This document shows positions 42,022 through 60,203 of a stretch of DNA of 64,000 nucleotides, piece by piece. The notes under the pieces were generated by a model. That model ran no database searches. It saw nothing but the letters and a program-made list of their open reading frames with translations, and was not told the origin of the DNA. The stretch's first letter is position 1; each line of letters opens with the position of its first letter. This DNA is from a virus: positions 1 to 64,000 of the IMG/VR virus record IMGVR_UViG_3300038465_000039; one strand, given 5' to 3'. A program made the translations under genes and the position numbers.

Positions 42022-42236
42022 GGGATCAGATCCAGCGTCTTGCACTTCAGCGCCTCGGCGATCTTGACCAGCTTCACCAGCGTGATCGAGCTCTGACCGG
42101 ATTCGTATTTCGAAACCTGCATCGGCCCGACGTCGATCACTTCGCCGAGTTCGGGCTGGCTCATGCCGATCTTCTCCCGGCGCGCGCGGATACGCGCTCC
42201 GATCGCTTCATCGGTGACGGGTTTTTTCCGGGTCAT
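42018..42236 (-). CDS. XRE-family HTH regulator
   Basis: 72 residues from the ATG at 42236. The helix-turn-helix is clear: RIRARREKIGMSQPELGEVI, then PMQVSKYESGQSSITLVKLV, the HTH_3/Cro-C1 pattern. A small Cro- or C1-like repressor is likely. It is a candidate for binding the operators seen upstream of the leftward operons, but this is an inference. Confidence 0.8.
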   Translation of the reverse strand: MTRKKPVTDEAIGARIRARREKIGMSQPELGEVIDVGPMQVSKYESGQSSITLVKLVKIAEALKCKTLDLIP

Positions 42237-44231: not shown

Positions 44232-44431
44232 CGCCGCTTTCCTTTACGTGCTTTTTTCTTTGCCACCTTTGCGACCTCGTTGCGTAGTTGATCGACAGTC
44301 GGTCTCTCCGGTGTCCGTGCACGCTTGGCGCCCGGCCCTTTGGTATTGTAGCGGATCAGCTTCAGCCGCTCGATGTCGGCAAGCTTGCTAGGTTTCTTCG
44401 GTTCTTCCTTTACCACTGCGATCTCCTTCAC
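44228..44431 (-). CDS. Small basic protein
   Basis: 67 residues from a GTG that forms GTGA with the stop of the first operon gene. Strongly basic (AKVAKKKARKGKRR at the end) with a helical middle. Possibly DNA-binding. No family is recognised. Confidence 0.5.
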   Translation of the reverse strand: MKEIAVVKEEPKKPSKLADIERLKLIRYNTKGPGAKRARTPERPTVDQLRNEVAKVAKKKARKGKRR

Positions 44432-44664
44432 AGGTCGCGGGGACGACGCTTCGGATGGCGGGGAGCGTGGTCGGCAATGATCTGGCGAACGCGTTCTCTG
44501 GTCACCCCCATGGCGTTGGCTATCTCCTCTAGGGTGTAGCCCGCGTGATGCTTTCGCCAACTGATGGCGTAGTTCCACCGCCACCGAATACGCTCTTCTC
44601 GACCGGTCCCTTCGACAAGGGGCAAGCATACTTCGGGGATAGTCCGCGTTTTCTTCGCCGCCAT
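44428..44664 (-). CDS. Sigma-70 region 4-like HTH protein, first gene of the leftward operon
   Basis: 78 residues from the ATG at 44664. YTLEEIANAMGVTRERVRQI matches the region 4 helix-turn-helix of sigma-70 factors, which recognises -35 elements; the N-terminal part (MAAKKTRTIPEVC) has no sigma domain. Being first behind its promoter, it could be an early regulator or an anti/alternative specificity factor. The longer upstream ORF crosses the promoter and is unlikely. Confidence 0.65.
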   Translation of the reverse strand: MAAKKTRTIPEVCLPLVEGTGREERIRWRWNYAISWRKHHAGYTLEEIANAMGVTRERVRQIIADHAPRHPKRRPRDL

Positions 44665-44775: not shown

Positions 44776-44876
44776 CGGGTACGCGGCGGATACGAAAACG
44801 CAAGCCCTTGGTTCTTCGTCTATTTTTTGGCCTCCGCGTACCTGGTGACCGCTTCGCGTACCCGGTCGCGTACCGT
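44776..44876 (+). repeat. Array A of CGTACCCG motifs
   Basis: One inverted copy (CGGGTACG at 44776-44783) lies next to an AT-rich tract. After about 50 bases three direct copies follow: CGTACCTG (44837-44844), CGTACCCG (44857-44864) and CGTACCGT (44869-44876). The same arrangement occurs at 58576-58681. They may bind a phage initiator or regulator. Confidence 0.65.
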
Positions 44877-44896
44877 TCGGTCCTGCTTTCTCGGTC

Positions 44897-44925
44897 TTGA
44901 CAGACGTTCTCGCAATAGCGCATAT
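44897..44925 (+). promoter_or_regulatory. Candidate rightward promoter
   Basis: TTGACA (44897-44902) and GCATAT (44920-44925) are 17 bp apart, reading toward the replication module and lying just right of motif array A. The -10 match is moderate. Confidence 0.4.
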
Positions 44926-45203
44926 CGCTTTCGCGCGCGGCCACACATTCCGATAGACCGGGCGCTCATCAAGAGCGCCAAACGGCACGATCGCAGGTCT
45001 TGTCTCTACAGTAACCTGTCTCTAATGAATCGTATGCGCGCGCGAGGGCGCGCTTCATCAATCATGTCGGCAAAAACGTAAACCACCGGCTTGACGGTCG
45101 AAAATATACAGCGCACAAAACACCAGCGATTGATTCTCCCTCGATAGGTTCCATTCCCCCTTTTCACAGTTGCTGCGCCGGTTCCTATCCCCGGCCTGCA
45201 TCG

Positions 45204-45246
45204 CCCCGGTCATCTGAATCAGTCGCCTTTTTCGTGATGGCCGGGG
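45204..45246 (+). promoter_or_regulatory. Leader hairpin before the first rightward gene
   Basis: CCCCGGTCATC and GATGGCCGGGG pair with one G-T wobble around a 21-base loop that includes a CTTTTT run. The stem ends 14 bases before the GAGGGAG ribosome site of the gene at 45270. It could work as attenuator or RNA stabiliser. Confidence 0.4.
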
Positions 45247-45269
45247 CAACTAATTGAGGGAGCATCACG

Positions 45270-45824
45270 ATGGGTAAGCGAACGACGATCGAGAGCGAAA
45301 AGTCTGCCACCGGTAAGGAAATCCGCCTGCCGGCGAAGACCACGATCAAGACCTTCAATTCGGCATTCGACGAAGCAAAAAACATTATCGACGATGCCAA
45401 CGAGGTTTTGAAAACCGCCGCCGACGAAGCCAAGGCGAAGCACCTCAACCTTTGGGCTTACAAGACCTGCAAGAAGCTGTTCGATGACTTCCATGCGGCC
45501 GAGAACGAGGCCCTCGCCGCGGAAAAGCTGGCGGTCAAACTCGCCAATTTCGACGAGTGCCGGAAGCATTTCGGGCTGGACGAGATCGCAAATTTGCAGG
45601 GCCGGCTCACGGGCATAGGTGAGATCGGCAGCAAAACCGACGTCAACGGTGTGCCGCGCGAAGTCGACGAAGATGGCGAAGAAGATCCCCGGCCATCGCA
45701 TTTGAGACGACCCGGCGCCTCCGCTGCATCGGCGGTACAGGAAATGGCCGAAAAGGCCGGAGCTACGATCCCGCCGAAAGATGATCCGATGAACTCCGTT
45801 GGGCGCGGCCCGAAGCCTCACTAA
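45270..45824 (+). CDS. Hypothetical protein, first gene of the rightward operon
   Basis: 184 residues from an ATG with GAGGGAG upstream. Lys- and Ala-rich helices in the first 120 residues (SAFDEAKNIIDDANEVLKTA, then LFDDFHAAENEALAAEKLAV), a polar middle and an acidic segment. No family is recognised. As first gene of a replication operon it may be a regulator or DNA-binding protein, but no HTH is seen. Confidence 0.55.
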   Translation: MGKRTTIESEKSATGKEIRLPAKTTIKTFNSAFDEAKNIIDDANEVLKTAADEAKAKHLNLWAYKTCKKLFDDFHAAENEALAAEKLAVKLANFDECRKHFGLDEIANLQGRLTGIGEIGSKTDVNGVPREVDEDGEEDPRPSHLRRPGASAASAVQEMAEKAGATIPPKDDPMNSVGRGPKPH

Positions 45825-45838
45825 AAGGAAATTCCATT

Positions 45839-46615
45839 ATGGGTGTGGAGCTTGGACAGACGTTCGGGCATTGGACGGTTGTTGCCTTGGCGCGTGTGAT
45901 AATCCCCTCGCAGCAGTTCTGGACTTGCGAGTGCAGCTGCGGCAATCGCAGAGATGTGAGGTCGGACAATCTTCTAAATGGTCGGTCTAGGCATTGCGGT
46001 TGTTCGAAATCTCCGCGATGGGAGGATTTGTCTGGCAAAGTTTACGGCCGGCTTACGGTAGTTGCTTTCGATCATGTCACGCCATACAGGCACGGCACGC
46101 GCACGTACTGGCGTTGCAAGTGTTCGTGCGGAACCGAAAAAATAATCCGGTCTGACGGGCTAAAGGGTGGTGATAATGTTTCGTGCGGCTGCAAAAAGGT
46201 CGAGCAGCTAACAACTCATGGTGACACGGGAACGCCAGAGCATTCTGCTTGGCTCGCGCTCTTCGACCGATGCCGCAATCCGAACAACGAATCTTTCAAG
46301 GACTATGGCGCGCGCGGCATCAACATCTGCGAACGATGGGAAAATTACGAGAATTTCTTAGCTGACATGGGTCGTAAGCCTACGCCGAAGCACTCGATTG
46401 AGCGAGTACGCAATAACGACGGTTACCAGCCAGATAATTGCGTTTGGCTCCCTATGCGAGAGCAATCCTACAATCGAAGAACAACGAAAATGACGGTCGA
46501 GAAGGCCGCTGCTGTTAGGTCGCGGGCTTGTGAATCGCAGCGTGTTCTCGCAGAGGAATTTGGCGTAAGCCAGGGCACGATATCTCGAATTTTACTGGGG
46601 CAGTCATGGCTCTGA
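45839..46615 (+). CDS. Homing endonuclease candidate with zinc repeats and C-terminal HTH
   Basis: 258 residues in three parts. Two zinc-binding repeats (FWTCECSCGNRRDVRSDNLL and YWRCKCSCGTEKIIRSDGLK) each end with a second Cys pair (HCGCSK, SCGCKK). The nuclease-like middle has AWLALFDRCRNPNNESFKDY, GINICERWENYENFLADMG, and ERVRNNDGYQPDNCVWLP, the style of phage Vsr/EDxHD- or HNH-type homing enzymes. The end has an HTH (VLAEEFGVSQGTISRILLGQ). It separates the first operon gene from the RuvC-like gene. Confidence 0.75.
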   Translation: MGVELGQTFGHWTVVALARVIIPSQQFWTCECSCGNRRDVRSDNLLNGRSRHCGCSKSPRWEDLSGKVYGRLTVVAFDHVTPYRHGTRTYWRCKCSCGTEKIIRSDGLKGGDNVSCGCKKVEQLTTHGDTGTPEHSAWLALFDRCRNPNNESFKDYGARGINICERWENYENFLADMGRKPTPKHSIERVRNNDGYQPDNCVWLPMREQSYNRRTTKMTVEKAAAVRSRACESQRVLAEEFGVSQGTISRILLGQSWL

Positions 46616-47163
46616 GATGTCTTGGCGTGGACCCCGGCGTCAACGGAAGTTGCGCGCTCTATCTCGGTGAGGGCCTGATGCTCCCGCCCGAAGCGATCTT
46701 TGATATCCCCACTGTGGGCGACGGCAACAAGCGTGAAATCGACTATGCGCGCATGCGCGACATGGTGTGGGCGCTGCGACCCGATGTAGCGTTTATCGAA
46801 GTGGTCAATGCTTTTCTGCCGAAGCGAGAAAACCCCGAGACAGGCGAGAAAGAAACCGTGAATTTTGGCGCAACATCCATGTTCCGGTTCGGGGGGGCGT
46901 ATTATGCGGCGCGCGCCGTTATCTGCTGTCTGAACATTCCGCTTCGGTCGGTCGGGTCTCCGGAGTGGAAGGGCGGATTCGGGCTCAAAGGGGGAAAGGC
47001 AAACAAGGATGCTTCGCGCAAGCTGGTGATGCAGCGGTACCCGCAAACGGCTCCGTTCGTTTCGCTTGTGAAGCACGGAAACCGCGCTGAGGCTTGGCTG
47101 ATCGCATGCTACGGCGCGCGCAAGATGCGACGGGAGAACGAAAATCTCGACATCCCCGAGTGA
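46606..47163 (+). CDS. RuvC-like Holliday junction resolvase, third acidic residue altered
   Basis: 185 residues. LGVDPGVNGSCALY holds the first Asp, DVAFIEVVNAFLP the Glu, and KHGNRAEAWLIACYGARK the last motif. Phage relatives I know read K-H-D-G-R-A-E-A at this point, so the Asp seems replaced by Gly, with Asn next. TSMFRFGGAYYAARAVI and KGGKANKDASRKLVMQRYPQ are normal family blocks. It should resolve branched DNA before packaging if active. It overlaps the homing endonuclease stop by 10 bases. Confidence 0.8.
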   Translation: MALRCLGVDPGVNGSCALYLGEGLMLPPEAIFDIPTVGDGNKREIDYARMRDMVWALRPDVAFIEVVNAFLPKRENPETGEKETVNFGATSMFRFGGAYYAARAVICCLNIPLRSVGSPEWKGGFGLKGGKANKDASRKLVMQRYPQTAPFVSLVKHGNRAEAWLIACYGARKMRRENENLDIPE

Positions 47164-47185
47164 GAAACCGCGCGACATCGACTAC

Positions 47186-47440
47186 GTGTTTGATTTCCTG
47201 ATGGATCGAATCACGGATGGTCGGCGCCGGGCTCGTGCGGCGTGTCAGGAACCGACATGCGGTGCGCGGGAGCAGGGAGTGGTGATCAGTTGTTCGTCTG
47301 TGAATTGCGGGGAGAAACTCATGCACAGTGGATGGCGCCGGGAATTGCGGGCATGTTTGCTGCTACGCGGGATGGTGTTGGACCGGGAGCGGCAGGAAAT
47401 TGAACGGGCCGCGCAAGCGGACAGGAAGGCGAAGCGGTGA
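47186..47440 (+). CDS. Small zinc-finger-like protein
   Basis: 84 residues from a GTG (or 79 from the ATG at 47201). Four Cys in two groups (CQEPTCGAREQG and ISCSSVNCGEKL) suggest zinc binding; the C-terminus is a charged helix (VLDRERQEIERAAQADRKAK). Its stop overlaps the next GTG start. Confidence 0.5.
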   Translation: MFDFLMDRITDGRRRARAACQEPTCGAREQGVVISCSSVNCGEKLMHSGWRRELRACLLLRGMVLDRERQEIERAAQADRKAKR

Positions 47441-48423
47441 AACCGGAAACCGACAAAGAGGAAGCGCACTGGACCCTTTTCGAGAAGTTGCTCGAAATGT
47501 GGGACAGCGACGCGCTGGTCAAGTTTTTCTACGCTGAGTATGAGCGCGGTCACGCCGCGGGCTATACCGCCGGCTACGAGGCCGCGCGCGCCGATATTCT
47601 TGCTGATCTCGAAACGGTCGCGAAGCGGACCAAGGCGCTGATGCCGCCGGCCGACCGCAAGCCTCTGGCGGTCACGGCGATGGAACCCATAGATAGGTCC
47701 GAAACGGACCAATCTGGGACAGCAGAAACGACCGTCGCGGGGGAGTGTGAAGCGCCCGAGGCTACCCAAGTAGCCCCCGAGCCCGAAAAACGCACCAGCG
47801 AGCCCCGCAGGCCCGAGGAACGGCCTCGTATTTCCCACGGAGTGGGCCGCGTGTCAGGATACGCAAGGCCGGAAGGCATCCCGTCGAATTTCGAAATGTG
47901 CCGGCTGGTCCTGATCGACGCCGGCCGCCCGTTGACCGCAACCGAGATCCGCGACTGCGTTAAGGTCCGATGGTGGCCCGATGTTCCGGCGGACTGGAAG
48001 TCGAGCCCGTTCGGGTTCTTGGGTTCAGGCAAGCTGAAAAAAGATGAAGACGGCAAGTTCATCCTGCCGGATGACAAGCCTGTCGAGCGAAAGCCGACGC
48101 CGCAGGAGATCATCAACGCCGAGGTCGCCAAGCGCCAGGCACCGAAGCTTGGCCCTCCAGCCCGTCAGGACGGCGTAGATTTTTTATGGAACGGCAAGAC
48201 GGTCACACTGCACCAGCGAGAGGCGACGATCGCGGTCCAGTTGCGGGCCGCGATGGGGAAGGGTCACCTCGACGCGAAGCTTTTGGCAAATTCGATCGGC
48301 ATCAAGTCCGAGGCGGAATCGGTGATGCGGGATATGGTTTCGATCCTGAACCCGAAGATCGCGGAGGTCGGTTTGCGTGTGGACTACTTCAAGGGGTTCG
48401 GCTTCATCATGAAGGAAGTTTGA
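47437..48423 (+). CDS. Winged-helix-like DNA-binding protein
   Basis: 328 residues from a GTG in GTGA overlap. N-terminal acidic coiled part (WTLFEKLLEMWDSDALVKFF, then YERGHAAGYTAGYEAARADI), a disordered middle rich in Pro and Glu, a winged-helix-like block (NFEMCRLVLIDAGRPLTATE) and a second one at the end (TVTLHQREATIAVQLRAAMG, then NPKIAEVGLRVDYFKGFGFI) like a response-regulator output domain. It could be a transcription or replication factor. Confidence 0.55.
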   Translation: MKPETDKEEAHWTLFEKLLEMWDSDALVKFFYAEYERGHAAGYTAGYEAARADILADLETVAKRTKALMPPADRKPLAVTAMEPIDRSETDQSGTAETTVAGECEAPEATQVAPEPEKRTSEPRRPEERPRISHGVGRVSGYARPEGIPSNFEMCRLVLIDAGRPLTATEIRDCVKVRWWPDVPADWKSSPFGFLGSGKLKKDEDGKFILPDDKPVERKPTPQEIINAEVAKRQAPKLGPPARQDGVDFLWNGKTVTLHQREATIAVQLRAAMGKGHLDAKLLANSIGIKSEAESVMRDMVSILNPKIAEVGLRVDYFKGFGFIMKEV

Positions 48424-48426
48424 ACC

Positions 48427-48963
48427 GTGGGGAAAAGAAGCTCATTCGAGCGCGTCCCTCAAGATAAGTACATGACGACGGACCCATGGCCGGTTCGCCG
48501 ATTGCAGGCGCATCTTCCGTCACGAATGATCTTTGCAGAACCATGTGCAGGCAACGGCGATATCATAAAATCAATGGAGTGGTTCGGTCACCGCTGCGCT
48601 TATGCATGCGACATCAAACCCGGCAAAAAGACAATCGAGAAGCGCGATGCACTGACGCTTGATGGGCGATGGCGCCGGGGATCAGGCGCGGCGATGTTCG
48701 TGACGAACTTGCCCTGGTCACGTGAGGTACTTCACCCGCTGATTGATCATCTGTCCGCGCTGTTGCCGCTCTGGACAATTCTTGATGCTGATTACATGCA
48801 CACCAAGCAAGGTGCTCCCTACATCGATAAGTGCCGTCAGATCGTCAGCATCGGCCGCGTGAAGTGGATCGAGGGCAGCGACGGCGGCGGGATGGAAAAC
48901 TCTTGCTGGTATCTGTTCGACGCCAAGCATACCGGCGGCCCTAGATTCATGGGGTTGGTCTGA
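48427..48963 (+). CDS. Methyltransferase-like protein
   Basis: 178 residues from a GTG. MIFAEPCAGNGDIIKSMEWF is a SAM-binding loop of the adenine-methyltransferase kind; FVTNLPWSREVLHP stands where NPPY would be (here NLPW). The catalytic motif is thus changed, as in several phage MTase-like proteins of unclear activity. It overlaps the next MTase start by one base. Confidence 0.65.
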   Translation: MGKRSSFERVPQDKYMTTDPWPVRRLQAHLPSRMIFAEPCAGNGDIIKSMEWFGHRCAYACDIKPGKKTIEKRDALTLDGRWRRGSGAAMFVTNLPWSREVLHPLIDHLSALLPLWTILDADYMHTKQGAPYIDKCRQIVSIGRVKWIEGSDGGGMENSCWYLFDAKHTGGPRFMGLV

Positions 48964-50294
48964 TGGCGGTCAAGATCATCGTCGGCGATTCCCGCGAGCA
49001 ATTGAAACTTCTCGCCAGCGAATCCGTGCACGAGATCGTCACCTCGCCGCCCTATTGGGGCCTGCGCGATTACGGCGTCGCCGGCCAGATCGGATTAGAG
49101 GAAACGCCGCAGGCCTTTGTCGCCGAGATGGTGGCGCTGTTTGCCGAACTGCGCCGGGTGCTGCGCGCCGACGGCACGCTGTGGCTCAATCTCGGGGACA
49201 GTTATGCCACCGGCACGACTTCGGATCGTAATCCGACGGCAACCGGAAAACACGGTTACTGGGAAAACCCGGCCATCAATAAACGAATTGACGGGCGAGC
49301 CTATGGCCTCAAACCCAAAGACCTAGTCGGCATTCCCTGGATGGTGGCCTTTGCCTTGCGCGCCGATGGCTGGTATCTGCGGCAGGACATCATCTGGCAC
49401 AAGCCCAATCCGATGCCGGAAAGCGTCACCGACCGCTGCACCAAGGCGCATGAATACCTGTTCCTGCTCTCGAAAAGCGAACGGTATTTTTACGATGCGG
49501 ACGCAATCGCTGAACCGGCTTCGGAGAATACGCATTCCCGCGGCACCAAGCTAGTGACGCCCAAGAGCGCGCCGGAAGATTCGATGGTGCGCGCCAAGGA
49601 AAGCTGGCACGCCTCGACCGGCGATCACGTTTCCACCCGCAACAAGCGCAGCGTCTGGACCGTGGCCACGGCCCCCTTTGCCCAGGCCCATTTTGCCACC
49701 TTCCCGCCGGCACTGATCGAGCCCGCGATTCGGGCCGGCACATCCGAGCGCGGCTGCTGCGTGGCCTGCGGCACGCCGTGGATCAGGATCGTTGCCCGCT
49801 CGCGTTCGAATGAAAGCGGTTCGGGCCGTAGCGGCAAAAACCCGGCCGGCAAGGGCGGTCCCAACGCGCAGCACGCCGGCAGCGACGATGATATCCGAAA
49901 CGGCCCCGTGATCACTACCTCGACGCTCGGCTGGTATCCGACCTGTGACCACGATGGCCTCGCTCCGCTGCCCGCCTATCCCGACAAACCCGGCCGCGGC
50001 GACGACGACGGCCTTGAGGTGGAAGCGGCCCACGATGCAGCGACAGCGCTGTGGCGCGCCCAATGCCGCGAGGTCGACGAGAAGCGGCGAGCGCTGTGCG
50101 AGATCTCCGCGCGCCTCATCACCGCGCCCTGCACCGTGCTCGACCCCTTCGGCGGCGCCGGCACCACCGCGCTCGTCGCCGATCGTAACCAGCGCCACGC
50201 CATCCTGATCGAACTCAATCCCGAATATGCCGCGATGGCCCGCCGCCGCATCGATGGCGACGCGCCGCTATTCGCCGGTGTGGATCATCCCTGA
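48963..50294 (+). CDS. Beta-class DNA methyltransferase
   Basis: 443 residues. Catalytic motif IV TSPPYWGLRDYG precedes the target-recognition part, and motif I DPFGGAGTTALVA lies near the C-terminus, the beta-class order used by CcrM. SPPY is common in N4-cytosine and some N6-adenine enzymes. A Cys/His segment (RGCCVACGTPW, later TCDHDG) suggests an inserted zinc site. It could protect phage DNA or tune methylation-dependent promoters; a GcrA homologue is encoded at 59713. GC content is higher than in neighbouring genes. Confidence 0.85.
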   Translation: MAVKIIVGDSREQLKLLASESVHEIVTSPPYWGLRDYGVAGQIGLEETPQAFVAEMVALFAELRRVLRADGTLWLNLGDSYATGTTSDRNPTATGKHGYWENPAINKRIDGRAYGLKPKDLVGIPWMVAFALRADGWYLRQDIIWHKPNPMPESVTDRCTKAHEYLFLLSKSERYFYDADAIAEPASENTHSRGTKLVTPKSAPEDSMVRAKESWHASTGDHVSTRNKRSVWTVATAPFAQAHFATFPPALIEPAIRAGTSERGCCVACGTPWIRIVARSRSNESGSGRSGKNPAGKGGPNAQHAGSDDDIRNGPVITTSTLGWYPTCDHDGLAPLPAYPDKPGRGDDDGLEVEAAHDAATALWRAQCREVDEKRRALCEISARLITAPCTVLDPFGGAGTTALVADRNQRHAILIELNPEYAAMARRRIDGDAPLFAGVDHP

Positions 50295-52780
50295 TGGCCT
50301 TCGATCCCCGCCAACTCGACGAGATACGGAGGCGCGTTCGCGTCAGCGATGTGGTCGGCTCTGTATTTCCGCTCATCAAAAAGGGGAATGAATTTGTCGT
50401 CAAAGGCAACGAGTCGTTCACGGTCAACGATGCGAAACAAGTGTGGTGCGAATTCGGATCAGGCGGCGACGGAAAGGGCCACGACGTCTTCGAATTTCTC
50501 GTCCAGAACCAAGGGCTATCGTTCCCCGAAGCGGTCGAAGAACTCGCCAGACAAGCCGGCGTCTCCCTCAAGGACGGACCTGGACGGAGTCCTGCTTCGT
50601 CTAATGGCGCTGGAACTGCATCGGCATCCCACGCTCGAATTAACGGAAGCGGAGCGGAGAGCTCGCCGACAGGTCGAGACGATAGGCCTGACAATGGTCT
50701 GGGAAAAGCTGCAGGCGGCAAGCGTGAAGTCATAGCGACATGGGATTATCTCGATCCGGAAAACACGCTGCTTTACCAAACAGTGCGCATGCAGGAACGG
50801 ATGCCGGATGGCAGTTGGCGTCTTACAAAAGATCGCAAAATCTGGAAAACCTTTTTGCAGCGCCGACCGGCACCGACGCCGGGCGAATGGATTCTTGGTC
50901 TTGATGTCGTCGATCGAGAAACAGGCGAACCTCTTGAGTTTTTGAAGACGGCGACCGGTACTGCATGGCTACGCGTAACCGATGAACGTCTGAAGTGGAA
51001 CAACACTACACGGGCAACGTTCGCCGATCTCGGTAACGTCGAGCACTGGCTATACAATGCAAATGCAGTGATCGACGAACTCCAGGAACCGAGGGACGAC
51101 CAGCGGACTATTTTCTGTCCCGAAGGAGAAGGAAAGGTCGATGTCCTGAAAGAGTGGGGTTTGCTTGCCGTAACCAATTCCGGCGGTGCAAAGCATTTCA
51201 CCACCGCCTGCGCAGAATTCTTTAGGGGCGCAAGGCACGTCGTCATTCTACAGGACAATGATCGCGCCGGCGCCGAGGGAGCGGCCAAGAAAGCCGCGAT
51301 GCTGAAAGCTGTCGGCGTTGAACTGATACAGGCGTTGAATTTTCGCGATGTCTGGCCCAGTTGTCCGATGAAGGGCGACGTCAAGGACTGGCGCGACCAT
51401 GGCGGCACAAAGGATCAGTTGCTCGAGATCGTTGACGATCTGAAGCCATGGACTCCGGAACCCTACAAATTCAGATACGGAGCAAAGACCGCAGCCGATC
51501 TGGATGACAAACCGAAGCAGTATCCCTGGCGGATTAAATTTCTGGTGCCGCGGAATGTCGATACGCTTATCATGGGGCCGAGCAAATCGGGGAAGACATT
51601 CGAGACGCTGAATATGTGCATGCATGTCCACTTCGGAAAGGATTACGCGGGCCGACGTGTTGAACAGGGCGGTGTTGTCTATTTGACTTATGAGGGATCT
51701 GAAGGTTTCGAAAACAGATTCCGCGCCTACATGCAGCACAACGATTTAACCAAGGCTGATCTTCATTCGTTTGCATGGTTGACGCGACCGCCTGGCCTTT
51801 ATGCGAGCGAGGATGATGCTAAGGGTGTAGCGCAGGAAATATCCGAGATCGCCAAGACCTTCCGTCTTCCGCTGTCTCATTCAGTGATCGATACTCATAA
51901 CGCGGCGACCCGGGGATCGAGCGAGATCAAGAGCGAGGATTTGAACCGCATCCAGAATAATTACGGGACCGTTCGAACCATCACGGGTTGCCCTCTCTGG
52001 ATCGTCGGTCATACAAATCAGGAAGGCCGGCACCGCGGCAACGAACAGTTTTTCAACGGCATCGATGCCGCGCTGTTGATACGCAGGCTCTACACCGATG
52101 AGAAAAAAAAGATCGAAAAGCGCGATGATGATAGGCGCGTCATTCGCCGATTGAGTTCCGACAAACAGCGCGATGGCGACGACAACGTGAGCGTCGATTT
52201 TGTGTTGCAGCGGGTTGTAATCGGTAAGGACGAATTCGGTGACGATATCCCGTCGATGGTATCGACTGAACCGGCGCAGAGCGTGCCGGACAGTGTTGTA
52301 GAGGAGACTACCCGGAAAGCTGAATGGCTCGACGGGGAATATCTGATGGGGAGCAATCTGGATGTCTTCCAGGCGTTGCTGCGCAGCCTTGCAAAATCCG
52401 GACAGCCGCCTCCAAAAGAACTCGGATTGTCAAATGTCCCATTGGTGGTCGAATGGTCGCATCTCGGCAGAGAGTATAAGAAGACCGATCCGCGCGAACA
52501 GGATGAACCGATTGATAAATATCAAAATCGCATGAAGGCGAGGACGCGGCGATTCCGTGCTGACCTGCTTAGAAAAAAGGTTATAGGGGTCGCCGAGATG
52601 ATCGATCCATCAGCCGTCAACGAGAATCCGGAGAAGCCGATGATGATGCATTTTATCTGGCCGACTGGACGAAGGGTTTATGGTAAAGGCCTGCAGTGGC
52701 CGCCATTGCCGAAAAAGAAAAAGGAGCAGCCGATGATTCTGGCTCCTGGCGAAACCGAAGACGATCTTCCTCCCATATAA
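50294..52780 (+). CDS. Primase-helicase fusion protein
   Basis: 828 residues. Residues 1-95 resemble a DnaG CHC2 zinc domain (QLDEIRRRVRVSDVVGSVFP, then GHDVFEFLVQNQGLSFPEAV) but lack most zinc ligands. The middle has a Toprim-like domain (FCPEGEGKVDVLKEWGLLAV, then VVILQDNDRAGAEGAAKKAA with DND). From about residue 415 follows a RepA/RadA-like ATPase with Walker A MGPSKSGKTFE and a TGCPLWIVGHTNQEGRHRG block. It probably primes and unwinds DNA at the phage fork. It starts one base inside the methyltransferase stop. Confidence 0.8.
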   Translation: MAFDPRQLDEIRRRVRVSDVVGSVFPLIKKGNEFVVKGNESFTVNDAKQVWCEFGSGGDGKGHDVFEFLVQNQGLSFPEAVEELARQAGVSLKDGPGRSPASSNGAGTASASHARINGSGAESSPTGRDDRPDNGLGKAAGGKREVIATWDYLDPENTLLYQTVRMQERMPDGSWRLTKDRKIWKTFLQRRPAPTPGEWILGLDVVDRETGEPLEFLKTATGTAWLRVTDERLKWNNTTRATFADLGNVEHWLYNANAVIDELQEPRDDQRTIFCPEGEGKVDVLKEWGLLAVTNSGGAKHFTTACAEFFRGARHVVILQDNDRAGAEGAAKKAAMLKAVGVELIQALNFRDVWPSCPMKGDVKDWRDHGGTKDQLLEIVDDLKPWTPEPYKFRYGAKTAADLDDKPKQYPWRIKFLVPRNVDTLIMGPSKSGKTFETLNMCMHVHFGKDYAGRRVEQGGVVYLTYEGSEGFENRFRAYMQHNDLTKADLHSFAWLTRPPGLYASEDDAKGVAQEISEIAKTFRLPLSHSVIDTHNAATRGSSEIKSEDLNRIQNNYGTVRTITGCPLWIVGHTNQEGRHRGNEQFFNGIDAALLIRRLYTDEKKKIEKRDDDRRVIRRLSSDKQRDGDDNVSVDFVLQRVVIGKDEFGDDIPSMVSTEPAQSVPDSVVEETTRKAEWLDGEYLMGSNLDVFQALLRSLAKSGQPPPKELGLSNVPLVVEWSHLGREYKKTDPREQDEPIDKYQNRMKARTRRFRADLLRKKVIGVAEMIDPSAVNENPEKPMMMHFIWPTGRRVYGKGLQWPPLPKKKKEQPMILAPGETEDDLPPI

Positions 52781-52787
52781 AATCACA

Positions 52788-53309
52788 GTGCATGCAGAAC
52801 CCCAAATGATAATCAAAGAGACGGTGGCAGGCGTGGCGGCGGATGGTGACCGTCCGTCCGGTCACGGCAGGATGCTAGGCAAGGCTCTGGCGCTGATTGC
52901 TGAGATTGGCCGCCGAGATGCGCCGATGCCAATCCCTGATACTTGCCTCACCTGTGCCTTCCGCGAAGGGACGATGCCCAATCAAACGGCTGGCACGGGC
53001 GTGATGGCGCTCAATTGCGTGCTGCGGATCGACCTTGACCGATTTGCATGCCATCACGGGATGAAGGAAGGCGAGCCGCAGAAACTCTGTGCGGGTTACA
53101 TCGCCGCGATGCTTGCGCCATTTTCGCAAGTGAGGGAAATCTTGGCCGCATTTCACAATGAACTCGGCACCATTGAAGATTCGACGGACGATGAGGTGCG
53201 CACGGCCTTCGATACATGGTTGAGCCTCGCTGATCCCGAGCGTCGGCTGGACGTTTATCAGGCCGCTCGTGAGTATGCCAAAAGTCAGATGCACGGTGAT
53301 GATCAGTAG
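52788..53309 (+). CDS. Phage zinc-binding hypothetical protein
   Basis: 173 residues from a GTG; the ATG at 52806 is an alternative. The block CLTCAFREGTMPNQTAGTGV, then NCVLRIDLDRFACHHGMKEG is a Cys/His motif found in many phage proteins next to replication genes. The remainder is helical. Function unknown. Confidence 0.55.
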   Translation: MHAEPQMIIKETVAGVAADGDRPSGHGRMLGKALALIAEIGRRDAPMPIPDTCLTCAFREGTMPNQTAGTGVMALNCVLRIDLDRFACHHGMKEGEPQKLCAGYIAAMLAPFSQVREILAAFHNELGTIEDSTDDEVRTAFDTWLSLADPERRLDVYQAAREYAKSQMHGDDQ

Positions 53310-53326
53310 ATTGTGGACAGAGAACC

Positions 53327-54184
53327 ATGAGGGTACAAAAAATGCAGGGGTTGACCAGCATGAAGACTGATTCCGAGGATGTCCAAAAGGCGGTCCTCGA
53401 AGACCGCAAGCGCCGGCGCCTTGGGCTCGCCGCCGAAATGAAACAACTCGGAAAACACAAAAAGCGAATCAAGTTCAGATTGGTCGAGGGACGCTCCTGG
53501 CCGATCGATGTTGCCACTGGCGAGAATGCGGATATCGATCGCGAAGACGTCATGGCGTCGTTACCGGACGATATGAAGGCGCTGGTTGGTGACGTCGATG
53601 AAAAGATGCAGGCCATGCGCGTCGAGGCCGACAAGCACCAATCGTTTACCGAGGATACCGTGCAGGTTGACGAAGGAGTGCTTTTGCGCCGGCGGGCCGA
53701 GCGTGAGGCAGAACTTGAATCGCGCTCCAAGATACGAGGCGAGAAATGGACGCCGGAACTCGTCGAGGCGAGACTGGAAGACGCCTATCGCACGCTGTTT
53801 CGATCAAGCATCGGCGGTACGGGACCGCGTCCATTCGGCAATGCGATGCCGGCAATCATTAAGGAAGTCTCCGATCTCGTGCACCAGGCCGGCAACAAAT
53901 CGCTTCGTAATGCGATTGCTCACAGGTTCAAGGGAGTACCATCGACTGAAGAAGTCCGGCGAGCTAACGAGGCCTTGGCGTGGGCAACTGAATATCTATT
54001 AACCGAGCATCCCGATCTGCCTGGGTTCGTTCAGTTGTCGGCTTTATGGAAGGCATGGGGCGCCAAGATCAGTAAAAAGTGTGAGACTCACGGCATCAAT
54101 CGACAGGCGTTTTATCGCGATCGAAAGATAGCGTTGCAGCTGATTGTCGATGGGTTGATACGAAGCGGGAAGGCGCCGACGTGA
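53327..54184 (+). CDS. DUF6362-like DNA-binding protein
   Basis: 285 residues. The C-terminal block EKWTPELVEARLEDAYRTLF, then RANEALAWATEYL and KKCETHGINRQAFYRDRKIA resembles the DUF6362 phage family, probably an HTH regulator or terminase-related factor. The N-terminal 140 residues are charged and helical. The true start may be the later ATG at 53360. Confidence 0.6.
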   Translation: MRVQKMQGLTSMKTDSEDVQKAVLEDRKRRRLGLAAEMKQLGKHKKRIKFRLVEGRSWPIDVATGENADIDREDVMASLPDDMKALVGDVDEKMQAMRVEADKHQSFTEDTVQVDEGVLLRRRAEREAELESRSKIRGEKWTPELVEARLEDAYRTLFRSSIGGTGPRPFGNAMPAIIKEVSDLVHQAGNKSLRNAIAHRFKGVPSTEEVRRANEALAWATEYLLTEHPDLPGFVQLSALWKAWGAKISKKCETHGINRQAFYRDRKIALQLIVDGLIRSGKAPT

Positions 54185-55020
54185 GGCTTATTCGAGTCTT
54201 CCCGCGTATCACCAAGGCAACGCCGCGAGATGATCTTGCGCGTTTCGGCCCTCCAACTTTATTCGACGAGGCTGACGAGGTTCATGTGTCGGTAACGTTC
54301 AGCGAGGATAAGATGATCGCAGAACATCTTGCTGAGCAATGGAAGCACGTCGCGCCGGTCAAAATCGGTGGCGTTGCCTACGACGACGATTCGCTCGAAT
54401 TTATTCCGGGTCGCTATATCGGCCCCGGCTATACCATCACGTCGCGCGGATGTCCGCGCAAGTGCTGGTTCTGCGGCGTCTGGAAAAAATGGCCGACCGT
54501 CAACCCCATGACGATCTACCCCGGATGGAACGTTCTGGATGACAACCTGCTCGCCGCGCCGCGCTGGCACGTGGAGGCGGTATTCGAGATGCTGCGCCAA
54601 TACGACCGCAAGCAGCGCGTGACGTTCACAGGCGGCTTGGAAGCCCTCTCACTGCAGGAATATCAAGTCGAACTACTCGCGAGCCTCCGGCCCAAGCCCG
54701 CAATGTTCTGGGCCTATGATCCCGGCGACGAATTCGAGACGCTAGAGCGCGCCGCGCGGTTGATGATCGAAGCAGGCTTTACCGCCGCATCGCATCGGCT
54801 CCGCGTCTATGTCTTGATAGGCTTTCCGAAAGACACCTTCGATCTGGCGGAAAAGCGCCTCAAGCAAATGATGAGCATCGGCCTGACACCGATGGCAATG
54901 CTGTGGTCGCCGGACAAGCCATCGCAAGAGCGATACCGACCTGCGCCGGAATGGCGTGCGTTCCAGCGCCGTTGGGCGCGACCGGCAATCATACATTCTG
55001 ATCCTGAGTGCCATACATGA
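54181..55020 (+). CDS. Radical SAM-like protein
   Basis: 279 residues from a GTG overlapping the previous stop. SRGCPRKCWFCGVW gives the CxxxCxxC motif for a 4Fe-4S cluster; before it comes a segment of the B12-independent Elp3/MiaB-like style (VKIGGVAYDDDSLEFIPGRY), after it VTFTGGLEALSLQEYQVELL and LRVYVLIGFPKDTFDLAEKR, normal radical-SAM blocks. Its substrate is unknown. A phage radical SAM enzyme may modify a nucleotide or host component. Confidence 0.8.
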   Translation: MRLIRVFPRITKATPRDDLARFGPPTLFDEADEVHVSVTFSEDKMIAEHLAEQWKHVAPVKIGGVAYDDDSLEFIPGRYIGPGYTITSRGCPRKCWFCGVWKKWPTVNPMTIYPGWNVLDDNLLAAPRWHVEAVFEMLRQYDRKQRVTFTGGLEALSLQEYQVELLASLRPKPAMFWAYDPGDEFETLERAARLMIEAGFTAASHRLRVYVLIGFPKDTFDLAEKRLKQMMSIGLTPMAMLWSPDKPSQERYRPAPEWRAFQRRWARPAIIHSDPECHT

Positions 55021-55217
55021 AAAAACTCCAGAGGCTCTTGAAACTACATCAGGGCGGCGAAAAGTTTGTCCCCACTCCTATCTGCGAGTGCGTCGGCACT
55101 GCGCAGAGGATGCATGTTGACGGTCGATTTATGGGATGGACCGAAGGTAGGCGCGGTCCCAAAGGTGGTGTCTGCGGTGCTTGCGGCGGTGCGATTCCTG
55201 ATGAGAGAGGCAAGTGA
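55017..55217 (+). CDS. Small zinc-ribbon protein
   Basis: 66 residues from the ATG overlapping the radical SAM stop. Two Cys groups (PICECVG and GGVCGACGGAIPDERG). Its tight overlaps on both sides show coupling with the radical SAM and nuclease-like genes. Confidence 0.5.
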   Translation: MKKLQRLLKLHQGGEKFVPTPICECVGTAQRMHVDGRFMGWTEGRRGPKGGVCGACGGAIPDERGK

Positions 55218-55951
55218 AGAAACAACCGGCATATGCTTCTGAGGTCGCGCTCTGCGCAGCATTCCTTGCTGCCGTCGATAAGCAGAAGTGGACCGCTTAT
55301 GCCGAGAGTCTAGGATGGGACATCCTACTTGTTCGAAATCGTGACGGATTCCAGATCGGTATCCAAGCCAAACTGCGGCTCAATGTCGAAGTCATCAATC
55401 AAGCAATCGAGGAAGGTGCATGGTATAGGATCGACGAACCCGGCCCCGATTGTCGCGCAATCCTGGTCCCTCCAGATGGCGGCCCGGCCTTCGACAAGGT
55501 TTGTGATTTCATCGGACTGACAATCATCCGGATGCGCGACATGACGCATCTCAATCCGCGCTGGAACAGTGCGTTCATGCCGTCGCTGCCTGACGATCAA
55601 ATCCATGATCGGGAGTGGCACGAGATGGCGCCGACGAAACGCCACAAGCTACCGGAGTATATTCCTGATGTAGCCGCTGGATCATCGGCGCCGATCCAAC
55701 TCACACAGTGGAAAATCAAGGCGATCAAGATCGCTATTCTTTTGGAGAGCCGCGGTTATGTTACCCGCGCCGATTTTTCCTACCTACAGATAGATCATCG
55801 TCGCTGGATAACGATGGGTTGGTTGAAGATTGAGAATGGTCGATACGTAGCCAACGCTTCCCCTGACTTCAAGGCTCAGCATCCCATCGTCTACGGCCAG
55901 ATCGAATCCGATGTAGAAAAGTGGAAACCGAAACAATCGGAGATGCTATGA
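55214..55951 (+). CDS. PD-(D/E)XK-like nuclease candidate
   Basis: 245 residues from a GTG. ESLGWDILLVRNRDGFQIGI, then QAKLRLNVEVINQAI gives the order Asp...Gln-x-Lys (IQAKL), close to the PD-(D/E)XK pattern with Gln in the acidic place; relatives I know show E-x-K. The C-terminal part has a small HTH-like segment (YVTRADFSYLQIDHRRWITM). It may be a nuclease or an endonuclease-derived binding protein. Confidence 0.55.
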   Translation: MKKQPAYASEVALCAAFLAAVDKQKWTAYAESLGWDILLVRNRDGFQIGIQAKLRLNVEVINQAIEEGAWYRIDEPGPDCRAILVPPDGGPAFDKVCDFIGLTIIRMRDMTHLNPRWNSAFMPSLPDDQIHDREWHEMAPTKRHKLPEYIPDVAAGSSAPIQLTQWKIKAIKIAILLESRGYVTRADFSYLQIDHRRWITMGWLKIENGRYVANASPDFKAQHPIVYGQIESDVEKWKPKQSEML

Positions 55952-56208
55952 CAATCGATATTACATTCAACGACAGCGGCCGCACAGCGACGCAGCCATC
56001 GAACCCGAAATTTCCGGACGGTATCGATGTCGATATTTCAGCACCGGGTCGTGCATCGTGTTGTTTCAACCTGAGTCATCCAGCCCCACGCGTCGGGACG
56101 TATTCGATTGTCTGCCGGACCTGTCGTTGCACCGCGGTCATCACCGTCGCCGGACGCCCCGACGATCCGCGCACCCTAACTTTACCGTGCAAGGAGATAC
56201 GACATTGA
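55948..56208 (+). CDS. Small phage zinc-finger protein
   Basis: 86 residues from the ATG in the ATGA overlap. SHPAPRVGTYSIVCRTCRCT, then VAGRPDDPRTLTLPC is a common phage block with paired Cys. Its function is unknown. Confidence 0.55.
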   Translation: MTIDITFNDSGRTATQPSNPKFPDGIDVDISAPGRASCCFNLSHPAPRVGTYSIVCRTCRCTAVITVAGRPDDPRTLTLPCKEIRH

Positions 56209-56645
56209 GCGATCTTCCGTTTGTTGTCATGATCGACTATACGAACCACACTGGCATTCGTGCTATCCGTGAGATCGTACCAATGCCAACAAACGCGCTG
56301 CACTTCGGCTCGAATCAATGGCACCATGAACCGCAGTGGCTGATCGATGCGATCGACGTCGCGAAGAGCGACATCCGCACATTCGCAGTCAAGGATATCC
56401 ATGCATGGTCGCCAAGAGATGCGGCTACTGGTCGGTCAATGGCATCCTACGCCAAGCAGCTGCAGGCCTCGATCGAGCGGAACGCGCGCATGAAGGTACG
56501 GCTCGCGAAGGTAATCGACGTGCTCGCCGGCGTTGACGGTAGCAAGAGCGACTCGCGCAGCGAGGTTGATGAAGCTATCCGCAGAATAATTGCCGCGCAA
56601 AATGCGATCACGGCAATCATGAAGGATGAGGAGCCGGTCTGGTGA
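56205..56645 (+). CDS. Hypothetical protein, TTG start
   Basis: 146 residues from a TTG that overlaps the previous stop and has a perfect AAGGAG ribosome site 9 bases upstream. N-terminal part (LPFVVMIDYTNHTGIRAIRE, then PMPTNALHFGSNQWHHEPQW) is a WYL-like or ribosome-linked style seen in phages; the C-terminal part is a charged helix. Family unclear. Confidence 0.55.
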   Translation: MSDLPFVVMIDYTNHTGIRAIREIVPMPTNALHFGSNQWHHEPQWLIDAIDVAKSDIRTFAVKDIHAWSPRDAATGRSMASYAKQLQASIERNARMKVRLAKVIDVLAGVDGSKSDSRSEVDEAIRRIIAAQNAITAIMKDEEPVW

Positions 56646-56989
56646 AGTTGGTTATCCTGGAGAGCCCGTTCGCAGCGAAAACCTTTATCGGTCGATGGCT
56701 GAATCGTCGGTACGCGCGCCGATGTGTTCGCGATTCTCTGATGCGCGGCGAGGCGCCTATCGCTTCGCATCTGCTCTATACTCAACCGGGCATCTTGCGC
56801 GACGGCGATCCTGCCGAGCGCCAATGGGGAATCGACGCCGGACTGGCATGGGGAGACCGCGCTGACGCCACCGTTGTCTATACGGACCGCGGAACGTCGC
56901 GAGGTATGGTCTACGGCATCAACAATGCGGACCGCGCTGGCCGACCGGTCGAACTTAGGATACTGAGGCGGCATTCGAACAACGGGTGA
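56642..56989 (+). CDS. DUF7768/DUF4406-type protein (deoxyribosyltransferase-like fold)
   Basis: 115 residues from a GTG. KLVILESPFAAKTF, then LMRGEAPIASHLLYTQPGIL and ERQWGIDAGLAWGDRADATV are the marks of this phage family, which has a Rossmann-like fold related to nucleoside 2-deoxyribosyltransferases and SLOG proteins. It may bind or hydrolyse a nucleotide-derived ligand. Confidence 0.75.
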   Translation: MKLVILESPFAAKTFIGRWLNRRYARRCVRDSLMRGEAPIASHLLYTQPGILRDGDPAERQWGIDAGLAWGDRADATVVYTDRGTSRGMVYGINNADRAGRPVELRILRRHSNNG

Positions 56990-56998
56990 GGTACTGAG

Positions 56999-57469
56999 AT
57001 GGCGGGAAGCGTAAATAGGGTGATCTTGATCGGCAATCTCGGGAAGGATCCCGAGACGTTCGAGCGTAACGGCAATAAGACCGTCAAGTTCTCGATCGCG
57101 ACCAGCGAAAGCTGGCGCGACAAAGCTACCGGAGAGCGCAAGGAGGTCACGGACTGGCACAACATTGTCGTGTTCGACAAAACCGCAGCAGAGTTCGCGG
57201 AAAAATTCCTGAAGAAGGGAATGAAGGTCTACGTCGAGGGCAAGCAGAAGACGCGTAAGTGGACCGATAAAGACGGTGTTGATCGGTACACCACGGACAC
57301 CGTTATTGCAGCGTTCGGAGGACAGTTGCAAAATCTGACGCGCAGCGACGGTGCAAGCGGTGGGGCACCGAGCGAGGACGACTATGGCACGCCGTCTGAT
57401 CGAAACGGGCGCTCGGCATCGCAATCATCCAGCAGGCCCGAGGATGACGGCGGGGATATCCCCTTCTGA
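56999..57469 (+). CDS. ssb: Single-stranded DNA-binding protein
   Basis: 156 residues. The OB fold begins SVNRVILIGNLGKDPETFER and continues with VKFSIATSESWRDKATGERK and VYVEGKQKTRKWTDKDGV. The C-terminal tail is disordered and ends in the acidic tip EDDGGDIPF, which in bacterial SSB recruits partner enzymes. It protects single strands during phage replication. Confidence 0.95.
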   Translation: MAGSVNRVILIGNLGKDPETFERNGNKTVKFSIATSESWRDKATGERKEVTDWHNIVVFDKTAAEFAEKFLKKGMKVYVEGKQKTRKWTDKDGVDRYTTDTVIAAFGGQLQNLTRSDGASGGAPSEDDYGTPSDRNGRSASQSSSRPEDDGGDIPF

Positions 57470-57870
57470 TGGCCTCCCGCATTGTCCCAGAAGGTGGATG
57501 GTCGAATCTCAAACCGTTCAAGACGCCGCGAGTCGAGAAGCAATCACACCTGCGATTTGTGAAGTCGCTGATCTGTGTATGCTGTGCGGCCCAAGGTCTA
57601 ACCGTGCAGGCTGACGACCCGCTGCACATTCGGTCGATCAGCCTCATTCACGGTAAGGACGAAACAGGCGGATCGCGTAAGTCAGATGACAGGTGGACAT
57701 TGCCAGGTTGCCGAAGACATCACGATCAGCAGCACGGCATGAACGAGCGAAACTTCTGGTCGATGTACCGCATCGACCCGTTCCTGCTTGCTTTGGTTTT
57801 GTGGGGCCTGACCGGAAACGAGCATGCTGCGGTCGAGGTTATACGGCTGCATGCGAGGGGAGGAGTTTGA
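57469..57870 (+). CDS. Ref-like/DUF968 HNH nuclease
   Basis: 133 residues. HLRFVKSLICVCCA, then DPLHIRSISLIHG and KSDDRWTLPGCRRHHDQQHG and MNERNFW form a compact HNH of the DUF968/Ref style, nucleases that act at RecA-coated joints. The gene overlaps the ssb stop by one base, which supports a recombination role. Confidence 0.75.
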   Translation: MASRIVPEGGWSNLKPFKTPRVEKQSHLRFVKSLICVCCAAQGLTVQADDPLHIRSISLIHGKDETGGSRKSDDRWTLPGCRRHHDQQHGMNERNFWSMYRIDPFLLALVLWGLTGNEHAAVEVIRLHARGGV

Positions 57871-58061
57871 TGCCGCCGTTCCGCGAAGATGTCAAAACCG
57901 CTTTCGGCAATCACAATCGTTTCGCCGAGGTGCTCGGTCAGATCGCTCATGGTCGGACCGATAATGGTAGACCGCTGGCGGCTGAGAAAGTGCGCCAGAT
58001 GGCGCGGGCCGTTCTTGTCGAGTGCGGCATCAATACGTGGTCACCGGACGAAACAGCATGA
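57870..58061 (+). CDS. Small hypothetical protein
   Basis: 63 residues from the ATG overlapping the previous stop by one base, with GGAGGAG ribosome site. Polar helix (FREDVKTAFGNHNRFAEVLG). Its stop overlaps the SLOG gene start by ATGA. Confidence 0.5.
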   Translation: MPPFREDVKTAFGNHNRFAEVLGQIAHGRTDNGRPLAAEKVRQMARAVLVECGINTWSPDETA

Positions 58062-58468
58062 GGCTTCTGGTATGCGGCGGCCGCGGCTACGGTGTCGTGC
58101 CGGACTGGTATCCGCAGGAACAAGCGGCTGAGGTCCGGGCGCGTGCTGCTCGTGAATCGTTCTTCCTGCGCGAGACGCTGGATTGCCTTCACATCGAAGA
58201 TCCTGTCTCAGTGGTCATCCATGGCGGCGCACGCGGCGCCGATGCATTGGCCGGGCTATGGGCGGTCCGGAAGGGTATTGAGGTCTTAGTCTTCAGGGCG
58301 GACTGGCGAGGTTTAGGGAAGTCGGCCGGTCCCATCCGGAATGCGCGCATGATCTTCGAGGGGTTGCCGGCAATGGTCGTCGCCTTCCCAGGCGGCTCTG
58401 GAACAGCCGACATGGTGCGCCAGGCAACGGCCGCTGGTGTCCGCGTCTTTGAGGCCGGGCAAGGATAG
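58058..58468 (+). CDS. SLOG-family protein (DUF2493/YspA-like)
   Basis: 136 residues from the ATG at 58058. MRLLVCGGRGYG is the first ligand-binding loop; VIHGGARGADALAGLWAV and FRADWRGLGKSAGPIRNARM and VAFPGGSGTADMVRQA are the other SLOG blocks. SLOG proteins sense or cut nucleotide-derived ligands. As the last gene of the rightward operon before motif array B, it may act in host control or counter-defence. Confidence 0.8.
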   Translation: MRLLVCGGRGYGVVPDWYPQEQAAEVRARAARESFFLRETLDCLHIEDPVSVVIHGGARGADALAGLWAVRKGIEVLVFRADWRGLGKSAGPIRNARMIFEGLPAMVVAFPGGSGTADMVRQATAAGVRVFEAGQG

Positions 58469-58889
58469 CGGCGAGTCGGAAATAGCGCACCGGTGAGCTT
58501 CTCTGGCCCAGCGAACGGCCATCCACAGGGAAAGTTCAGGTCGTGAGACCGAAAAATAGCTACAAAAATCCTTTTCGGGTACGTGAAAATCACAACATAC
58601 TGTTTTTCCATCATATTTTGATTGTCGGCGTACCCGTCAATGGTTTCGCGTACCCGCCACGTACCCGTCATTTCGTACCCGTTTCGACGATTGCGGCGAA
58701 AATAAATATTGACGGGCCGCGACAGATTGCGACAACCATACGCACGCGAGCCCCGAAAGGGGTATTGCGTCCATCATCCCTGCGAGCGCCAGAACGCCCC
58801 CCGACGCTCGGGTATCGACCTTCCTTCGAACGCCCGGCTGCTCACGCAGTCGGGCTTCGTTGTATCCGGGGGCAGGGGGAAATCTGGGG
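58469..58889. other. Intergenic region holding motif array B
   Basis: 420 bases without a gene. An AT-rich tract (58545-58625) is interleaved with five CGTACCCG-type motifs (58576-58681). A hairpin at about 58831-58854 (GCCCGGCTGC/GCAGTCGGGC with loop TCAC) has only a short T-run after it. No promoter of high quality is seen. Confidence 0.5.
58576..58681 (+). repeat. Array B of CGTACCCG motifs
   Basis: Inverted copy CGGGTACG at 58576-58583 directly after a TTTTC run, then after about 45 bases four direct exact copies at 58629-58636, 58649-58656, 58660-58667 and 58674-58681. The layout mirrors array A at 44776-44876. Confidence 0.7.
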
Positions 58890-59231
58890 ATGGGCGACGG
58901 TCAATCGCTAGACGAGGCTTTCAAACAAATCGCTGCACTCCGGAAGACGATCGATGAGCAGCAGCGCACCATTACTCGGATGCAATCGGTCGGCGGCTTC
59001 GCCGACAGCAAACAACTATCGACGCGATCTCAGCGCCTCGAGGACCGTGTCGAGCGGCTTGAGTTCGACAGCGTGATGCACCAGGATGTCACCGCTCACA
59101 CGGTCGACCTGATGTCGCGCCACCTGCACGAGCGTCATGATCTCGATCTTGATCGGGACAATTCGCCCGACGTGATTTTCTTGCGCAAGATTCGGAAACG
59201 GTTGCGCGATTGGGCGGAAGACAAGGTCTGA
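58890..59231 (+). CDS. Coiled-coil protein
   Basis: 113 residues from the ATG at 58890. A long coiled coil (DEAFKQIAALRKTIDEQQRT, then RLEDRVERLEFDSVMHQDVT) and a charged C-terminus (FLRKIRKRLRDWAEDK). Two tiny ORFs of 22 and 18 codons follow with ATGA-type overlaps (59231-59299, 59296-59352); they are too short to call. Confidence 0.5.
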   Translation: MGDGQSLDEAFKQIAALRKTIDEQQRTITRMQSVGGFADSKQLSTRSQRLEDRVERLEFDSVMHQDVTAHTVDLMSRHLHERHDLDLDRDNSPDVIFLRKIRKRLRDWAEDKV

Positions 59232-59537: not shown

Positions 59538-59716
59538 CACATCGGCTCGTCGAGTTCGGCTTCTATCATGAGATCGTCGATAGCCTGTTGCTCGGTTTCG
59601 CCGTGGCCGATGGGCGAACCGAGATCGTAGTCGTCGAATACAGCGCTCCAATCCGCATCACGAAAAGGAACCGGCGGCGGGTCGTACTTCGTGATGATCT
59701 TGCGCGGTGGCATCAT
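59537..59716 (-). CDS. Small hypothetical protein
   Basis: 59 residues from the ATG overlapping the gcrA stop. Acidic C-terminus (TEQQAIDDLMIEAELDEPM) after a short segment (PPRKIITKYDPPPVPFRDAD) resembling phage DUF-type proteins without known role. Confidence 0.5.
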   Translation of the reverse strand: MMPPRKIITKYDPPPVPFRDADWSAVFDDYDLGSPIGHGETEQQAIDDLMIEAELDEPM

Positions 59717-60165: not shown

Positions 60166-60183
60166 CAGAATCTCCACGAGAAA

Positions 60184-60203
60184 CCCCGGCATTCATGCCG
60201 GGG
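60184..60203 (+). repeat. Hairpin at the left end of the second TnpB element
   Basis: CCCCGGCATTCATGCCGGGG is a perfect 9-bp inverted repeat with a 2-base centre, close in form to the right-end hairpin at about 61408-61434. A second hairpin with a T-run (TTCCGGC/GCCGGAA, 60215-60231, then TGCTTTT) follows and may be a terminator. Confidence 0.5.

Follow-up and report, generated by a model that had tools for sequence, protein, structure and literature searches.

The alpha protein of phage P4 is a primase-helicase with a C-terminal DNA-binding domain that binds iterons, and P4 has two separate cis sites, ori1 and crr, built of short direct and inverted iterons (about six per site). Iteron plasmid origins consist of one site with iterons usually of 17-22 bp and DnaA boxes, and may overlap the rep operator. 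In P1 parS, asymmetric boxes stand on either side of a bend. The Rep protein of Staphylococcus aureus pathogenicity islands (SaPIs) uses its C-terminal domain to bind the iterons of its origin and apparently does so in the form of two hexamers (PMC7581432). Here we describe two intergenic arrays, A and B, of the 8-bp motif CGTACCCG in a phage recorded as IMG/VR virus record IMGVR_UViG_3300038465_000039. The window analysed covers bases 1 to 64,000 of this 89,260-bp record (G000). The two arrays are real and conserved, and form a paired cis element in a phage group without a close named member.

Exact copies of CGTACCCG were counted seven times in the window, compared with 1.62 +/- 1.28 (maximum: 5) in 100 dinucleotide shuffles. 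The full record contains eight copies, seven of which fall within arrays A and B, while the eighth (89139) is isolated. TTGAC is found 3' of each array (44897 and 58709). Array A separates leftward genes from the rightward replication operon. Array B comes after the end of this operon and ahead of the next rightward one, which leads to the gene of the terminase large subunit. The initial annotation had described two arrays of the same layout that flank the replication module, with exact copies in B and copies in A that vary in their last bases. In A, the copies at 44776 and 44857 are exact and those at 44837 (CGTACCTG) and 44869 (CGTACCGT) are variants. The motif count and the relatives described below bear the description out, as the motif is uncommon in the rest of the record and both arrays are conserved, and the position can be given more precisely, each array being upstream of one rightward operon (A: replication; B: late/packaging). 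The single inverted copy per array that it reported holds for B, whereas in A a second inverted site, CGTATCCG, had been missed. An origin of the arrays in chance or base composition has next to no probability: a loose pattern of this GC-rich motif matches many unrelated stretches, mostly six-base repeats, but no shuffle reached the window count, and conservation of geometry and position in eight relatives refutes this explanation.

Relatives were sought in IMG/VR by using the primase-helicase encoded between the arrays (40-67% identity). They comprise G001 (65.5 kb), G005 (74 kb; replication operon crossing the contig ends), G006 (71.8 kb), G007 (95.5 kb), G008 (69 kb), G019 (70.5 kb) and the fragments L173 and L148, the latter covering the B side only. 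A scan for the DNA layout was the sole route to G019, which alone among the 30 matching records searched encodes the primase-helicase. Terminal overlaps of 127 bases indicate that G001, G006 and G008 are probably complete circles. In total, 17 arrays were collected from 9 records, eight with both arrays and one (L148) with B only. Every relative that has the matching region contains both arrays with the same operons beside them and the primase-helicase gene between. G001 and the present phage share almost no structural genes yet share the arrays, which indicates that the arrays travel with the replication/regulation module. A scan of genome contigs returned one weak, partial match only and thus no prophage relatives, and a strict promoter-linked pattern scan gave no matches. 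A broad three-copy pattern scan returned 119 stretches with spacings that are mostly multiples of 6; these were read as coding repeats (GTACCC: Val-Pro) and set aside.

In operon orientation, each array begins with an inverted site and continues, after 48-53 bp (between site starts, in arrays with a recognisable inverted site), with direct sites that fill up to five slots at spacings of 7-8, 11-12, 11-12 and 13-14 bp. Multiple short iteron-like sites thus stand at a fixed cis location in all 17 arrays of the 9 genomes, with fixed spacings. The geometry is kept even where single copies have decayed, the spacing then being the sum of two slots (e.g. 20 = 8 + 12). The inverted site was not recognised in array B of G005, L173 and L148 or in either array of G008. 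The AT-rich tract that had been noted beside the inverted copy is present in most CGTACC-type arrays (gap AT content: 52-78%) and is not general.

Both arrays of G006 and both arrays of G019 are written CGTCACCG, at sites 7-8 kb apart, and the motif of G008 is (T/C)GTA(T/C)CCG with GTA retained. Since both arrays change motif together, the sequences imply that one trans-acting protein per phage reads both, which is our strongest inference and is independent of the function assigned to the arrays. Besides enzymes, three proteins are conserved throughout the six genomes compared: the primase-helicase, a Cro-type HTH_3 protein and a ParB-like protein. The most likely binder of both arrays, and the best candidate from sequence comparison, is the C-terminal domain of the primase-helicase, a protein whose RecA fold matches those of T7 gp4 and Twinkle. 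Helix 3 of this domain reads KARxRRFR in six of six CGTACC genomes and AQTKRFR in both CGTCACCG genomes. No more than three of its 12 invariant positions change in G006, all of them arginines (R746K, R750Q and R752K), and the same three change in G019. G008, in which GTA of the motif is retained, also retains R750. This covariation of helix and motif lends moderate support to the primase-helicase as the binder. The order of secondary structures in the domain, H-b-H-H-b-b in two predictions (predicted local distance difference test: ~56-58), is that of a winged helix and suggests such a fold by this order alone; a profile search of PDB sequences with the domain gave weak ETS-domain (winged helix) matches only (E about 0.7-1).

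Three other proteins were considered as binders and rejected. Among the proteins conserved in the six genomes, the HTH_3 protein is the only one recognisable as a regulator; its recognition region is not constant even where the motif is (CGTACCCG genomes), and it does not track the motif. The helix-turn-helix (HTH) region of the ParB-like protein likewise varies among CGTACCCG genomes. A 78-amino-acid (aa) sigma-70 region 4 HTH protein encoded just left of array A is found in this phage only and not in its relatives.

The reading that we tentatively favour, although we place it just short of probable, is a P4/SaPI-like twin iteron/initiator system bound by the primase-helicase and coupled to promoters. 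Each array would be a nucleoprotein docking module in which a spacer of ~42 bp separates one inverted site from as many as five direct sites of 8 bp, placed at intervals of roughly a helical turn, and would lie just upstream of the promoter of its rightward operon. One phage protein, probably the primase-helicase through its putative C-terminal winged-helix domain, would occupy both arrays, and the hexameric helicase would load itself there on up to six sites, a number that would suit a hexamer. On this reading, replication would originate at array A, with array B serving as a further cis site, comparable to ori1 and crr of P4, and the bound protein would also feed back on the adjoining promoters. 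The primase-helicase is encoded by the phages and a single-stranded DNA-binding protein by this phage. Seven genomes were searched for a family-A polymerase and for a Pol III alpha subunit, and neither was found. This fits phages that probably use the host polymerase and need helicase loading of their own, as P4 and SaPIs do.

Several observations weigh against this reading. Cumulative GC skew, which had been proposed as a check for an origin, is lowest at A in five of six genomes and, for most, peaks mid-genome, but at fourfold-degenerate sites of correctly oriented genes this minimum disappears and no origin signal was found. Because the signal vanished once coding bias was removed (an intermediate fit was confounded by spurious antisense open reading frames), skew was not used as origin evidence. 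DnaA boxes within one mismatch are not conserved, being absent from four of seven A regions and present in none of eight B regions. The gap in G006 has an AT content of 39-46%. A fold search with the C-terminal domain alone, for which the model is weak, returned nothing significant. G006 and G019 are 74% identical, so that their helix change counts as one evolutionary event, and the rest of the C-terminal domain has also changed more than the helicase core. Finally, 15 of the 17 arrays have TTGAC 8-37 bp past their last site, compared with a background chance of 0.049 per 50 bases, and this points to transcription.

The main rival, which we regard as a serious possibility, is accordingly a purely transcriptional one, in which a regulator other than the primase-helicase would act on both arrays to activate or repress both rightward promoters, so that replication and late genes would be regulated jointly, with replication starting elsewhere. 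It would account for the recurrence of TTGAC, for the place of each array before the first gene of an operon and for a GC skew without origin signal. The offsets from the start of the last site to TTGAC (8, 16-18, 28 or 35-37 bp) cluster near 8, 17, 28 and 36 bp and are quasi-periodic at ~9.5-10 bp (p 0.02, distinct distances), as expected of helical phasing with RNA polymerase. Conserved leader elements also follow: past TTGAC, A arrays have CTTTCGCGCGCGG or a close variant in common together with a GC-rich leader hairpin, B arrays of four genomes have GAGCCCCGAAAGGGGTATT or a close variant, and most B arrays have a second hairpin just 5' of the first gene (hairpin pairing was read by eye). 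The two arrays without TTGAC are array B of L173, with TTGCTT instead, and array B of G008. The promoters beside the arrays are putative, however; most arrays have a weak -10 element or none, no array site overlaps the -35 element, and the sites within an array are rigidly spaced while their distance to the promoter ranges from 8 to 37 bp. The one regulator conserved in six genomes is moreover the HTH_3 protein described above, with its varying recognition region. Between the iteron origin and the paired operator of the initial annotation, the evidence is therefore divided, the C-terminal helix of a replication protein tracking the motif on one side and TTGAC following the arrays on the other, and origin and transcriptional roles could both hold.

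The arrays might instead act as a pair, with the bound protein bridging A and B and looping out the replication operon so as to insulate or time it. Identical modules in the same orientation, 7.3-13.8 kb apart in every genome measured and changing motif jointly, would fit such a role, but the distance varies nearly two-fold and the data fit independent use equally; we consider bridging improbable. The lowest standing among the functional readings goes to a partition site for the ParB-like protein, comparable to P1 parS with its boxes on either side of an IHF site, which we judge very improbable. The ParB-like protein is conserved in six of six genomes, and inverted and direct boxes surround a bendable gap in which IHF-like words are somewhat enriched (mean: 1.7 vs 2.6 mismatches; a weak signal and not independent data). 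However, neither a ParA-type ATPase (PF13614) nor a tyrosine integrase was found in six genomes, the HTH of the ParB-like protein varies among same-motif genomes, and there are two sites, both at promoters. Among the three functions first suggested for the arrays, partition is thus disfavoured, while the underlying idea of one protein on two sites gains from conservation and from the concerted motif switch.

A more ambitious combination, which we think unlikely, would make one self-loading primase-helicase on two identical six-site modules a shared switch, which would start replication at A and, from both A and B, set how the replication and late operons are transcribed, in a phage family with probably alphaproteobacterial hosts. 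A single protein would then control the early-to-late step as well as genome copy number; control of the adjoining promoters by the primase-helicase would in itself join replication and the early-late switch through that protein. The arrays define a pair of cis elements for this phage group, and the favoured binder would link a replicative primase-helicase to DNA sites whose two natural versions (CGTACCCG and CGTCACCG) go with differences at three arginine positions.

Coordinates of the features are given in Table 1. Hairpin-rich leaders follow both putative promoters. The hairpin of the A leader keeps its form between genomes while its sequence changes, and in several genomes a terminator-like hairpin closes the B leader; a leader RNA or a conditional terminator is possible. 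The product of the first gene of the replication operon has N-terminal halves of two types and the C-terminal peptide RPxHLRxPGAS in all. A stretch of a DNA methyltransferase is 88% identical to Bordetella phage vB_BbrM_PHB04, and as nothing else in 44400-58900 matches that phage, a recent exchange is indicated. A homologue of the cell-cycle regulator GcrA (PF07750, E 1.6e-27), present in this phage only among six, suggests an alphaproteobacterial host. A tiny cysteine-rich protein (CxCGAxRLxCGCCHxxCxCPxH), possibly a zinc protein, is encoded near the packaging genes in six of six phages.

Table 1. Positions of the array sites, putative promoter elements and genes (window numbering unless another record is named).
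Feature	Position	Strand	Remark
ParB-like protein	27528-29252		conserved in six genomes
Cro-type HTH_3 protein	42018-42359		conserved in six genomes
Sigma-70 region 4 HTH protein	44428-44664	-	78 aa
Array A, exact inverted CGTACCCG	44776-44783	-	extra copy, 61 bp 5' of first direct site
Array A, inverted site CGTATCCG	44787-44794	-	conserved slot, exactly 50 bp before first direct site
Array A, direct site 1, variant CGTACCTG	44837-44844	+	
Array A, direct site 2, exact CGTACCCG	44857-44864	+	
Array A, direct site 3, variant CGTACCGT	44869-44876	+	
Putative -35 TTGACA, replication-operon promoter	44897-44902	+	invariant in 7/7 aligned A arrays
Element CTTTCGCGCGCGG	44928-44940	+	~31 bp past TTGAC, conserved downstream of A arrays
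Hairpin-rich leader, A	44940-45060		
First gene of replication operon	45270-45824	+	184 aa, unknown; a homologue leads the operon in all checkable relatives
DNA methyltransferase	48963-50294	+	
Primase-helicase, candidate binder	50294-52780	+	CHC2 zinc ribbon, AAA_25 RecA-type helicase
Primase-helicase C-terminal domain	52346-52777	+	residues 685-828; predicted H-b-H-H-b-b, low to moderate model confidence
Helix 3 of C-terminal domain	52511-52573	+	residues 740-760, KARTRRFR; changes together with DNA motif
Array B, exact inverted CGTACCCG	58576-58583	-	
Array B, direct site 1, exact CGTACCCG	58629-58636	+	
Array B, direct site 2, exact CGTACCCG	58649-58656	+	
Array B, direct site 3, exact CGTACCCG	58660-58667	+	
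Array B, direct site 4, exact CGTACCCG	58674-58681	+	
Putative -35 TTGACG, late-operon promoter	58709-58714	+	
Hairpin-rich leader, B	58745-58860		
Leader hairpin CCCCGAAAGGGG	58751-58762	+	conserved downstream of B arrays, four genomes
First gene after array B	58860-59231	+	123 aa, unknown; conserved in several relatives, leads toward terminase genes
GcrA homologue	59713-60192	-	
Tiny cysteine-rich protein	64102-64374 (G000, in L010)	-	G001 13108; G005 61143; G006 21632; G007 53074; G008 30381

From their sequences, the arrays appear to work like a twin iteron or operator system, which may belong to the P4/SaPI type. P1 parS resembles them in having boxes on either side of a gap and in being accompanied by a ParB-like protein, and differs in that here no ParA was found and the element is present in two copies, is promoter-proximal and has boxes of another length. 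Iteron plasmid origins share with the arrays a series of direct repeats, spaced by about one helical turn, that precedes the operon encoding the replication protein; here, in contrast, the sites are of 8 bp, form two arrays and have no conserved DnaA boxes. The nearest named relative by near-full-length primase-helicase is Microcystis phage Mae-JY30 (PP438422; 31% identity over 82%), in which the module order is the same. No CGTACC array was found in this phage; one loose cluster of TGTCAC repeats, one of them inverted, lies near the position of B (L172, 24062-24150), between the replication operon and the ParB/terminase genes and upstream of TTGACC, and is possibly a distant version of array B. 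The self-loading helicases SaPI Rep and SCCmec Cch2 offer a C-terminal domain that reads a multi-iteron origin, with apparent hexamer binding (PMC7581432); SaPI origins lie directly downstream of rep, whereas the two arrays here stand several kb up- and downstream, and the helicase families differ. With P4 alpha, ori1 and crr, the motif differs, the helicase here is RecA-type (AAA_25, T7 gp4/Twinkle-like) and not SF3, both arrays adjoin putative promoters, and the present system is known from sequence alone. The likeness to P4 lies in the phage-encoded primase-helicase, with a C-terminal domain that is here predicted, and in two separate cis sites composed of short direct and inverted sites.

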